Source of the DNA: Saprospiraceae bacterium
GTDB taxonomy: Bacteria > Bacteroidota > Bacteroidia > Chitinophagales > Saprospiraceae
NCBI GenBank assembly: GCA_021298335.1
Contig: JAJTEZ010000033.1
Span: forward strand, 1-39,436
Direction: 5' to 3'
Length of the DNA stretch: 39,436 bases
Within the stretch, counting starts at the first letter, position 1. The number at the start of each line of letters is the position of its first letter. Both the position numbers and the translations under genes were made by a program. The notes under the pieces were generated by a model. That model ran no database searches and was not told where the DNA came from. It worked only from the letters and a program-made list of their open reading frames with translations. Positions 1,257 to 34,513 of the stretch are shown piece after piece.

Positions 1257-2057
1257 ATGAACCTGGAAGTGTTACAGGCCATCGTTTTGGGTCTGATTCA
1301 AGGATTGACAGAGTTTCTGCCGGTTAGTTCCAGTGGACACTTGGAAATAGCAAAGTTTATTTTAGGTAATGAGGCTGTACCGCACGAGAGTCTTCTTATG
1401 ACGGTTGTTCTGCATTTTGGTACTGCCTTGGCGACACTCTATGTGTTTCGAAAAGATGTAGTGCAGATTCTTACAGGATTTTTCTGGGGTCCTTCCAATC
1501 CTCATAGGACATTTGGTTGGCAAATCATATTATCTATGTTGCCTGCTGCTTTTGTTGGTTTGTTTTTTGAAGACGAGATCGATCAGATGTTTTCTCAGAA
1601 TATTCTGTTTGTATGTTCGATGTTAATGCTGACGGGTGTTTTATTGTTTATAGCAGAAAAAGCTTCTTATACAGGAAAAGGGATCACCTTTTCTTCTGCT
1701 CTTTGGGTGGGAATAGCACAAGCAATTGCCATCACCCCGGGTATCAGTCGCTCAGGTGCGACAATTTCTGCGTCAGTGCTTTTAGGAATCGACCGAGCAA
1801 GTGCCGCCAGATTTTCATTTCTCATGGTGGTGCCTTTAATTTTTGGTAAAATGACCAAAGATCTGATGGACGGTTCCTTTCAGCTGCAATCTACAGCAAT
1901 GATGCCACTCCTCACTGGATTCATTGTATCGTTTTTTGTAGGAATATTTGCCTGTAAATGGATGATTGCCTTGGTCCAAAAAAGTAAGCTCCATTATTTT
2001 TCATTGTACTGCCTCGTGGCTGGGTTTGTGGGTATTTTATATGCTGTGGGAAAATAA
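1257..2057 (+). CDS. uppP: Undecaprenyl-diphosphate phosphatase UppP (BacA)
   Basis: UppP dephosphorylates undecaprenyl diphosphate to recycle the lipid carrier of peptidoglycan precursors. The product is 266 residues, the normal size. Both signature regions are present: the E-rich motif with LPVSSSGH (residues 21–28, after Glu19) and PGISRSGAT (161–169, with Arg165). Several membrane segments are predicted throughout. An open frame extends upstream to 1191, inside DUF3098. The ATG at 1257 is preferred because it gives the family's usual N-terminus (MNLEVLQAI) and clears the preceding stop at 1251. The last 17 bases overlap the probable start of truB, suggesting translational coupling. Confidence 0.96.
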   Translation: MNLEVLQAIVLGLIQGLTEFLPVSSSGHLEIAKFILGNEAVPHESLLMTVVLHFGTALATLYVFRKDVVQILTGFFWGPSNPHRTFGWQIILSMLPAAFVGLFFEDEIDQMFSQNILFVCSMLMLTGVLLFIAEKASYTGKGITFSSALWVGIAQAIAITPGISRSGATISASVLLGIDRASAARFSFLMVVPLIFGKMTKDLMDGSFQLQSTAMMPLLTGFIVSFFVGIFACKWMIALVQKSKLHYFSLYCLVAGFVGILYAVGK

Positions 2058-2704
2058 ACATATCGTCACAAAAACTTCCTTGGATCAGCCCGTCGATTTC
2101 CTAAATGGTGCTATCTTGCTGATTGACAAACCATTGGGATGGACATCTTTTGATGTTGTCAACAAATTGCGGTTTACCCTTAGGCACAAGCTGGGGGTAA
2201 AAAAAATAAAAGTAGGTCATGCCGTATACGGGCAAGATGAAACTGGGTGCAACCACTCCGACGTATGATGCTGAGGCCGAGGAAGATGCAGTCTTTCCTA
2301 CAGACCATATCAGCCAAGCGATGATTCAAGAGGCATCCCAACTGTTTACCGGAGAAATTCTGCAGACTCCGCCTGTGTATTCTGCGGTCAAAGTAGATGG
2401 AACAGCGGCTTACACTTTGGCCCGAAAAGGGAAAGATGTAGTCCTGCAGCCACGTCGAATTCAAATTTATGAGTTTCACACAATTTTTGACAGCTTTGAA
2501 GAAGTGCTTTTCTCTGTGCGATGCAGTAAGGGAACATATATTCGTTCCTTGGCGCATGATTTTGGTGCGCAACTTGGCAGTGGAGCTTATTTGCGGTCTC
2601 TAAGGCGCGAGGCTATTGGGGAATGGAGAGTTTCTGATGCACTTAGTGTTGAAGAAGCACACCATTGGATCAATGATATGGGAAAAGCATTGGAAACGAC
2701 TTGA
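2041..2704 (+). pseudogene. truB: tRNA pseudouridine-55 synthase TruB, internally deleted and frame-shifted
   Basis: TruB makes pseudouridine-55 in the T-loop of tRNAs. The N-terminal part, read from the ATG at 2041, contains the family motif LLIDKPLGWTSFDVVNKLR and ends at VGHA (2212–2223). The C-terminal part, in another frame from TAT at 2225, begins YTGKMKLGATTPTYDAEAEE and runs through RSLAHDFG to the stop at 2704. In known TruB proteins these two blocks are separated by about 31–34 residues that include the catalytic aspartate loop (GxLDPLATG). That segment is absent here and the frame changes at the joint, so the gene should yield no active enzyme. A perfect 10-bp palindrome, CCGTATACGG (2222–2231), spans the joint. 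Either the gene is truly lost or the assembly has dropped about 95–100 bases. It overlaps uppP by 17 bases. Confidence 0.88.
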
Positions 2705-14966: not shown

Positions 14967-17578
14967 TTATCGCTGAATAAACATATGCATCATAGGAGGC
15001 GCCTGATTTTGAGGTGCACCTAATGCATTGATGTTGTACGTGGCATTCAACATAAAATATCTGCCGATTGTATTCGAAATGGACTCAGAAATATACGTTT
15101 CTGATGCAGTTCTGGAGATGCCCTGGTTTTGATTCAGAATGTCAAATACGCGAAGTTTTAGCGTGAGTTTATTCTGCATAAATCCCTTGGACAGGGACGC
15201 CTGCCACAATTTAATGGTTGTTGCCGCATCAAAAGACCCCTGGTCATAGAGGAAATACTCCATCCTGGAATCAAGGGTCCAGCCCTTACCTGCAAACCAT
15301 GCGAAATAAGCCTCATAGGTCTGGTTCAGAAACTGGGTATTCAGTGTTTCATTTTCCAGGTACAGGTTTTGGTTCACATTCCATCTTCCTGTAACAGACA
15401 GGTCTACTACACTTTTCGATTTGTTTTCAAGCGTAAGGCTGTAGCCATTGCTCCACCTGTCTATTCTATTGGCAAGTCCATTGATGAAACTAATGCCCTG
15501 CGTAAGTGAAGAGTTTAGCCCCAGGCGTACTTTTGCTCGTAACGGCTGGATTGGACTGCTGTAGTTGATGTTTCCTGCCAACGTTCTCTCAAACTCGGTG
15601 TTAAGAGGCTTTTGAGTACGTAAAAACAGTACGGGATCTACAATACTGGCATTTGTGATACGGTTTTTTGTATATCCCAACCGAACATTGGCAAACAGAC
15701 TTCTAAAATTGAACTGATCGAAAAAGTTATAGGAAATCCTCATGTTATGTCTGTATTCAGGTACCAGGTCAGGATTTCCCTGATAGACATTCAACGGATC
15801 ACTGTTGTCGAGTACAGGCTGGAGTTGTTCAAGTGAAGGTTCCCGCACTGAGGTAGAATAGTTCATCCTAATACGCAGATTTTCAAGGTCCAGGGATGCT
15901 TTCGGGAGAAAATAGTTGAACGTACGATTCACATCCTCTCCAATGCTTGGCTTTCCTTCCAGGTTGGAATTTTGAAAATCAGTCCCAAGAGATGCGCTTA
16001 CTGCTTCATTGATAAACCTGAAATTCAGCCCCGCTGTATTATACACGAACCTGTTGTCAAACGTTCTGCTTAATTCTTCATTCAATACTCCCGGCAAAAT
16101 AAGATTATCCGGATTCAGATCGAGAAAATCTTTAATCAGGTCGGTTTTATTATTCCTCCTGCCTCCATTCAGTATCAGGAAAAAACGGTCAGATTTAAGC
16201 GGCTCTGTGTAGGATGCATTAAAATTATAATTTCCGTTATCTGAATATTGATTCTGGTCCTGAAACACAGACACATTCGGATTTAGTACCAAATCACGGC
16301 CATAAACCTCACTTAAGATTCTGTAAATATTATCAGTATTGCTTCCGCCGGCAGAAGCTTCTGAAGAGATGGTGCGGCCTCTTTTGGCCAGTTTTCTGCG
16401 TAAGTTGATAGAAAATGAGTAGTTATTACCGGTTGTAGTATTGTTTTTTTGCTGATCATTCAGGTTTAACAAGATTCTCTGTAAGCTGAGAGTAGTATCT
16501 GTCTGGCTGGATGTATTTTGATTTTCACGAAGACTTAAAGATCCTCTGAAAGTCAGTTCTGTCAGCGAGTCAAACCGCAAATCGAGCACAGTATTGATAT
16601 TGTGGTTGATACCATCTGACAAGGAATTGTAAAATTTATCTGAAAGAAGTGCTCCGCCGGGAAGGAATGAGTTCACAAGTGTTGTCTGCCTGAGATCTGT
16701 TTCGCTTTGCGACAAGTAATAGCTGACATTCATTTTATTTTTTGTGTCCCAGTCGCGATTGAAATTGATCCCAGTGGTGATACTGTTTGTAAGTCCGGAA
16801 TTATTCGGACCAAACGATATCGGTGCGCCACTGCTCATTCCCATGTTGCGCATACCTCCGCCGCCCGTCATCGAAGCAAAATCATTGACATTGATGCCTG
16901 CATTATTCAGGTTGTTCAGACTTCCAATGGCTGAAAGCTGTGAGTTTTTATTAAAACGATTGATGAGCGCTTTCCCTTCATACCTCTGATCAGTGCCGTA
17001 GCCACCCATGATATTTCCAAAAACTCCTTTTCGCTTGTCTTCCCGAAGTTCAAGGTTAATGGTTTTTTCCTCCTGACCATCATCAATACCAGTGAATTCA
17101 GCGGTTTTAGATTTTTTATCAAATATTTGCACTTTTTTTACAGCATTTGCCGGAAGGTTTCTTGTAGCCATTTTTGGGTCTCTACCAAAAAACTCTTTAC
17201 CATCTACAGTGACTGCCTTCACATCTTCTCCCTGTACTTTGATGGATCCATCTGCATCTACCTCCACGCCAGGTAGTTTTTTTAATAATTCCTCTCCGCC
17301 AAAAGCTCGAGACTTCTTTGCAGAGTACCATAGCCGATATAGGTAATTTGTAGTGTATATTTTCCTGCTTTGATGCCTGAAAGTAAAAAACTTCCATCAG
17401 TCTCAGTCACTCCAAAAGATACCATGACTGAATCTGCTGGTGTAAGCAACACGGCAACAGCCCCAATCAGGTTGTTTTTTTCATTATCTTTCACGACACC
17501 CTTTACGCTGAGATTTTGCGAATTTGCCACACTTGACAGGCCTGCAAGAAATGTGCAAAAAATGATTAGACGCTTCAT
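14967..17578 (-). pseudogene. TonB-like outer-membrane beta-barrel protein, internally deleted and frame-shifted
   Basis: The N-terminal part (start ATG at 17578) has a signal peptide (about 1–20, ending near SVANSQ) and a CarboxypepD_reg-like domain (VKGVVKDNEKNNLIGA, TDGSFLLSGIKAGKYTLQI). It stops at 17282. The rest, in another frame, begins EELLKKLPGVEVDADGSI (about 17297–17244). It continues through a plug-like region (VTVDGKEFFGRDPKMA) and a long beta-barrel of roughly 650 residues, ending at 14967. In intact homologues about 45–50 residues link the regulatory-like domain to the EELLKKLPG segment, including a VVV…KxDTIEYNA-like stretch. That linker is missing and the frame changes near 17290–17305. 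The upstream GLPGLI gene is the typical partner of this family. Either a real null allele or an assembly deletion. Confidence 0.85.
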
Positions 17579-27942: not shown

Positions 27943-28378
27943 TTAGTCCTCCTCCATTTGTGTAAGCTTCTTCCAGGCCAGTTCAATGATATCCCACTCA
28001 TACCCTTTGGAGTGGGCGTTTGATAGAATATGCTGATGTTCCCTTGAGTTTTAACTCCTGTTGTATGCGAATGCGCCCCCACTGCTTCATTCGAAATTTA
28101 CCACGTGCGTAGCTACAGGCAAACCGTTCTTCGTCAAGAAAATTCTCGGTAATCAAATCAGCGATGATATCTTCCAGAACATCGCCATAGATTCCGTGTT
28201 GCAAAAGCTTGTTTCTCACTTCCTGGTGTGATCTTTCCTGGTAAGCACAAAATTTCCGAATCAAAAGCCTGGCTTCCTGAACGGACCAGTATTTTTTTGA
28301 TTTTTCTGGAACGAAATCATCGTACATGGACTGTGATTGTAAGGTAACTGGTATATCCCGTTTCTTAGAGTAATCCAA
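27943..28378 (-). pseudogene. recX: Regulatory protein RecX, internally deleted and frame-shifted
   Basis: RecX modulates RecA filaments. The N-terminal part (ATG 28378, or a Met at 28327) covers the first helical repeats: SVQEARLLIRKFCAYQERS, EVRNKLLQHGI, LITENFLDEERFACSYARG and GRIRIQQELKLKGTSAYSIKR. After SIKR the frame soon meets a stop at 27998. In another frame, from about 28011, the sequence reads SKGYEWDIIELAWKKLTQM and ends EED-stop at 27943, a typical RecX C-terminus. About 35–40 residues that normally lie between are missing. The joint (28009–28017) falls in the 3' arm of a hairpin CCCACTC (27993–27999) / GAGTGGG (28010–28016). It overlaps the HAD gene start by 14 bases as the last gene of the trhO–pbp1A–HAD–recX run. 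Confidence 0.82.
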
Positions 28379-33913: not shown

Positions 33914-34513
33914 ATGACATTAATCCCTTATTCAGAGGAGCAGATCTTTGAACCCCTTCGGTTTGAAAATCACTGGTGGTCGAATGGACGTGTGGAGGAT
34001 TATTATACATCCATGCAACGAAGATTATATTTTGATTTGTTTTTTCAATTAATCAGCGAGACAGAGATTCGAATTTCAGCGAATCAGCCACTTTAAGATT
34101 TACCTCACAAATCCTTCATTGCGCAGTGCCTTGTTTTCGCCCCTCCAACCGACAGACCCAATGCTTGCAAACATGGTTGAAACTGCTGTTTTTGCACAAT
34201 GGCTGAGTATGGACAGGTCAAGATGTATTATGCCCGATGGCAGAATGGGGAAGTAGATATGGTCAAACTTGATGAGTCCAATATCAATCCTCAATGGGCG
34301 GTGGAGATCAAATGGAGTAACCAATATTATGAAAAACCCGGCGATCTGAAGCCACTATTGTATTTTATGAAAGAAAATCAAATCAAAGAAGCGCTTGTCA
34401 CTACGATCGACAAACATGGGGTCAAAGAAGTTGACGGAGTCTTCCTTCATTTTATACCTGCTGCTCTGTATGCCTATTCCATCGGCAGAAATACTTTGCT
34501 CGAGGTAAGGTAG
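33914..34513 (+). pseudogene. Remnant of a DUF4143-type AAA ATPase
   Basis: Three blocks belong to one family. The first (33914 to about 34070) reads IPYSEEQIFEPLRFENHWW … RRLYFDLFFQLISETEIR, the family N-terminus just before the Walker A region. The second (frame shifted, 34071 to about 34205) reads EFQRISHFKIYLTNPSLRSA … MVETAVFAQWL. The third (34205–34513) reads EYGQVKMYYARWQNGEVDMV and continues to the C-terminus (VEIKWSNQYYEKPGDLKPLL). About 270–300 residues with all ATPase motifs are missing between the first two blocks. The second break is explained by loss of a single base in CTG(G)AG near 34205. The joint at 34067–34074 is the palindrome ATTCGAAT. The remnant follows an AT-rich island, consistent with an acquired, decayed gene. 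Confidence 0.8.

Follow-up and report, generated by a model that had tools for sequence, protein, structure and literature searches.

TruB, the tRNA pseudouridine(55) synthase (TIGR00431, PF01509), is the closest described counterpart of the broken gene analysed here, which lies on a stretch of 39,436 nucleotides (in the following called the window) from the draft genome of a Saprospiraceae bacterium (assembly GCA_021298335.1, contig JAJTEZ010000033.1, positions 1 to 39,436). One study reports that Escherichia coli tolerates the loss of truB, yet pays for it with reduced fitness in co-culture, and that TruB is a tRNA chaperone, a catalytically inactive form of which rescues this defect (PMC11301382). 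The second described system is the spurious pseudogene: assembly errors, in which assembler, platform and coverage are implicated, account for many putative pseudogenes of bacteria, according to the abstract of Cooley and Wright 2024 (PMC11017572). The truB locus of the window resembles TruB in both flanking blocks, in their order and in all 52 testable conserved positions, and differs from it by the lack of 31 residues including the catalytic aspartate loop and by a change of frame. With the spurious pseudogenes it shares that undecayed genes are broken in frame, in excess over relatives and in a draft assembly, whereas that abstract deals with frameshifts and internal stops and the four breaks mapped in the present genome miss about 60–160 nt each. 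A preliminary description of the window had been headed by the statement that truB has lost its catalytic core, and had remarked on a loss of pseudouridine-55 synthase as unusual. We could confirm the break in the assembled sequence, but a break of the same kind in the single-copy gene rpoC points to an assembly error and not to a loss of the gene.

Results and Discussion

The truB locus in the assembled sequence

The start codon of truB (ATG, 2041–2043, plus strand) overlaps the end of uppP, the open reading frame (ORF) of which ends at 2057. From this ATG the N-terminal block of 61 residues extends over 2041–2223, passing through KPLGWTSFDVV and ending with VKKIKVGHA, after which the same frame continues as a short tail to a stop codon at 2266–2268. 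A single base, the G at 2224, forms the joint, and past it the C-terminal block (2225–2704, plus strand) follows in another frame, starting with YTGKMKLGATT and reading YTGKMKLGATTPTYDAE as far as the TGA stop at 2702–2704. The C-terminal block matches TruB_N (PF01509) at positions 44–149 of 149 with an E-value of 4.8e-29 and the NCBIfam profile TIGR00431 at positions 66–209 of 210 with an E-value of 1.3e-36 and 126.3 bits, which is below the cut-off of 151.45. The N-terminal block alone gave no match in Pfam or NCBIfam; nonetheless it aligns with 27 relatives, and the TruB proteins of G009 and G003 match in frame +1 up to 2223. With the G009 protein as query both blocks were found, in frames +1 and +2, leaving 31 query residues unaccounted for where the window has 1 nt. 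The conserved flanks DKPxxWTSFD and CSKGTYIRSLAHDFG are both kept. Of the features of the family, the assembly thus contains the TruB_N domain and the conserved flanks and lacks the single ORF and the loop GTLDPLATG, which we take to be the catalytic aspartate loop of TruB; by direct reading this loop is absent at the joint, and all 27 measured relatives have it.

The size of the missing part was measured with a search pattern at 31 loci of relatives (L003–L031, L033 and L034), 27 of which fitted the pattern while L015, L024, L033 and L034 did not. In each of the 27 the two blocks are separated by exactly 31 residues, which agrees with the 31–34 residues proposed in the preliminary description. 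As these 31 residues correspond to 93 nt in the relatives and the window has 1 nt, the deficit is 92 nt, so that the 95–100 bases given before were slightly too high. The joint indeed lies inside the palindrome CCGTATACGG (2222–2231), as had been noted, but the significance attached to this position is lost, as the window contains 38 ten-base palindromes compared to about 38.5 expected (length/1024). A palindrome occurring at chance frequency was therefore ruled out as the cause of the joint. A one-base overlap is possible at this site, since the Gly codon after the left flank starts with G and a G precedes the Tyr codon in 7 of the 27 relatives; such a microhomology does not discriminate between the causes of the joint.

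Apart from the joint, truB shows no decay. None of the 52 testable positions (those conserved in at least 90% of the relatives) is altered, and in the 27 relatives the same score gave no change in 8 and 1 to 6 changes in the other 19. The gene is thus undecayed, as had been described, and an inactivation must be either very recent or not real. The genome holds a single TruB_N match, and the N-terminal block finds only itself, so that no second truB was found in the assembled genome, which is 83.7% complete and could conceivably have an unassembled copy. A pattern search for the catalytic motif (up to 2 mismatches) over the genome returned two matches with 2 mismatches each, neither of them spelling GTLDP.

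That an absence of truB would be unusual, as the preliminary description had held, is borne out by a survey of the order. Among 396 genomes including the present one, a TruB match was found in 384 (above the cut-off in 381), and for genomes of good quality in 346 of 349. Within the genus 9 of 10 genomes, the present one included, have truB, the exception being a genome that is 65% complete. A scan of contigs with the C-terminal block yielded one distant locus (L033), which was of no use. Some deviating copies were also seen. One genome of the same genus has a second short truB-like frame of 151 aa (G002:C69:4991–5410, L034) besides a full truB, and two genomes of the order survey show TruB matches that are unusually weak or doubled (G086 and G091; 5.1e-34 at two places; 2.8e-7), perhaps representing broken or cut copies.

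A break of the same kind in rpoC

The gene rpoC, encoding the β' subunit of RNA polymerase, matches only contig C95 in the present genome, and it does so in three pieces (L046:16732–19999, minus strand). It is split at L046:17605, where ...IVSPSG is followed by one extra base and then by GKI, a stop and DITGG. In comparison to rpoC of the same-genus genome G005, which has 35 additional residues at this point, 104 nt are missing and the frame is changed; the identity to G005 is 87% before and 85% after the joint, and G005 has a CAG in place of the in-frame TAG that is found about 10 nt beyond the joint. When the 111 residues around the joint were used as query, an unbroken full match was obtained in 8 of the 9 other genomes of the genus, with no match in G001, and in the present genome alone the match fell into two pieces (1–44 and 75–111) in different frames. 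The joints in truB and rpoC are alike, as in both about 100 nt are gone, one base is left over and the flanks are clean. A cell in which β' is cut in such a way is not viable, and the joint in rpoC must therefore be technical.

Frequency of frame breaks in the genome and its relatives

The present genome is a draft of 218 contigs with a completeness of 83.72%. Further frame breaks seen in the window (described below) prompted us to sample 60 more stretches of it and, for control, parts of the genomes of three relatives from the same genus. These samples were analysed with a purpose-written frame-switch hidden Markov model (HMM), in which a switch was counted if it lay more than 15 nt ahead of the stop of the upstream frame. 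This gave 55 switches in 716,908 nt versus 11 in 625,767 nt of the relatives (4, 3 and 4 in 297,754, 242,617 and 85,396 nt), a ratio of 4.4 (p 3e-7), and at the strictest cut 21 switches versus 1. By reading, which was not blind, mid-gene breaks were recognised in 6 of 20 entries of one HMM list and in about 10 of 51 of another, compared to 1 of 11 in the controls. In a second test proteins of the sampled relatives served as queries, and at loci matched with more than 100 bits we counted splits across frames with residues missing. Here 3 of 94 loci were split in the present genome (truB, rpoC and a repeat protein at L088:18438) versus 0 of 188 in the relatives (0/89, 0/63 and 0/36; p 0.036). 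The four breaks that could be mapped with proteins of relatives lack 92 nt (truB), 104 nt (rpoC), 62 nt (L088) and 161 nt (L111). The excess of lesions over the related genomes is thus strong by the HMM and modest by homology.

Origin of the broken truB

Because similar mid-gene breaks recur in the sampled contigs, including one in rpoC that a living cell would not tolerate, the broken truB is in all likelihood an artefact of the assembly, and in the organism itself a single truB very probably encodes a normal, working enzyme that produces pseudouridine-55. In this view the assembly would have lost about 92 nt of genuine sequence at 2224 and fused the flanks with nothing to mark the gap, putting the gene out of frame. 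The breaks in truB and rpoC probably share one technical cause, and we suggest that contig ends were joined, without N, over short regions that few or no reads covered. Scaffold gaps of N with a wrong size were considered as the mechanism and found no support: the sample contains N runs of 13, 81 and 38 nt, their flanks did not show about 100 nt hidden in each, and the N may also stem from masking.

Several observations weigh against this explanation. The rpoC pieces match TIGR02386 at overlapping positions (2–993 and 910–1071), and the residues missing from rpoC therefore rest on the relatives and not on the profile; in addition, the HMM did not flag rpoC. This gene is also the sole essential one seen broken, with dnaE, leuS and gyrA being intact and alaS running off the end of its contig; with so few essential genes examined, a single broken one is in line with how dense the breaks are. 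The broken genes recognised other than rpoC look dispensable, as they would under real erosion, and the breaks in a helicase on L111 and at L079:1921 resemble small frameshifts in which no large stretch is deleted. The HMM counts take in ordinary overlapping neighbour genes, which make up many of the switches, and the smallest control, G005, reaches 4.7 switches per 100 kb, the highest value of the controls, versus 7.7 in the present genome. This control also shows one apparent mid-gene break of its own, in an SbcC-like gene (L134, near 2127). If truB is left out as the starting case, the homology test gives 2 of 93 versus 0 of 188 (p 0.11), which makes the contrast modest. Below 100 bits one more split appears in the present genome (L111:5865) and one in G005 (L131:11313), the latter being weak and with 194 nt between its pieces, hence without missing sequence.

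The best surviving alternative is a real and very recent deletion of 92 nt that inactivated truB in the population, leaving a pseudogene with an intact tRNA-binding remnant and no pseudouridine-55, while rpoC and perhaps the other breaks would be separate assembly errors. The clean breakpoints would suit such an event, as would the failure to find another truB match or a complete catalytic motif elsewhere in the assembled genome, and according to a title cited in PMC11301382 a truB deletion leaves the exponential growth of E. coli unaffected. Yet the deletion would have to fall by coincidence into a genome where breaks that look like it are in excess and include one in rpoC, it would concern a gene matched in nearly all good genomes of the order, and truB is without any sign of decay. 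We consider it improbable. Of the two possibilities left in the preliminary description, a recent event or an artefact, the second is the one favoured by the recurrent breaks and by rpoC, and a real recent loss is not supported.

Even less probable is an erosion of the whole genome, in which a lineage newly dependent on a host or on neighbours sheds dispensable genes by short deletions. Most of the broken genes that we recognised (outer-membrane receptors, crtY, recX and truB) would fit this, as would the whole dnaE, leuS and gyrA, but rpoC is broken in the same manner, truB shows no positional decay and the coding fraction according to the HMM is not below that of the relatives (0.88 versus 0.77–0.84, with about 4.8 kb of N in the stretches taken from G003). 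A shortened functional TruB, for example a 161-residue ORF from the ATG at 2219 that would serve as a non-catalytic chaperone of tRNA folding, can practically be dismissed, as this ORF has neither KPLGWTS nor the catalytic loop and such a form occurs in 0 of 27 measured relatives, even if an ATG is present at the joint and PMC11301382 describes TruB as a tRNA chaperone.

Further breaks in the window and in the sampled contigs

Besides truB, the window contains an outer-membrane protein on the minus strand that changes its frame at about 17300. Its N-terminal part (17285–17578) carries a CarboxypepD_reg domain (PF13620, positions 1–69 of 82), with an HMM switch at 17303, and its C-terminal part (14967–17297) follows in another frame as a β-barrel reading EELLKKLPGVEVDADG and matching OMP_b-brl_3 (PF14905) over positions 1–408 of 408. 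Proteins of this kind, with CarboxypepD_reg and a β-barrel, presumably have a stretch between the two parts, and judging from this layout such a stretch would be missing from 14967–17578. A probable third break lies at about 28008 in recX (27946–28378, minus strand), where the first frame, containing RecX_HTH1 and RecX_HTH2, ends with SAYSIKRPLQRV and a stop and the second resumes with KGYEWDIIELAWKKLTQMEED and a stop. Pfam found no RecX domain past these two. The gene seems to be without most of the third helical domain, and 21 residues resembling the end of this domain follow in the other frame. At 33914–34513 three short frames read like scattered pieces of a larger protein; this was an impression only, and Pfam finds nothing on the three pieces. 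Scans of the whole window with Rfam (gathering threshold) and for tRNA gave no matches.

In the other contigs of the sample several genes are broken in the middle as well. The crtY gene (L039:10335–11476) matches PF05834 with positions 1–85 and 147–295 in different frames, and a protein of the β-lactamase fold (L112:608–1721) is likewise divided into pieces 2–109 and 162–313. In a UvrD-type helicase (L111:1983–4939) two pieces that hit the same family or domain architecture do not share a frame, and in two TonB receptors (L086:3937–6697 and L102:8357–10335) plug and barrel are found in different frames.

Conclusion

In summary, the two blocks of truB in this assembly are conserved and stand in different frames with 92 nt missing between them, and this break is most probably a product of the assembly. 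In the sampled quarter of the draft genome, by reading, a frame-breaking joint that carries no N occurs roughly every few tens of kb, one of them in rpoC, and gene losses or pseudogenes claimed on the basis of this assembly should not be accepted unless the reads bear them out. A recent real loss of truB in a member of the order would, if true, be mildly interesting. For the biology of the organism the broken gene is of little consequence, as truB is most likely intact in it.
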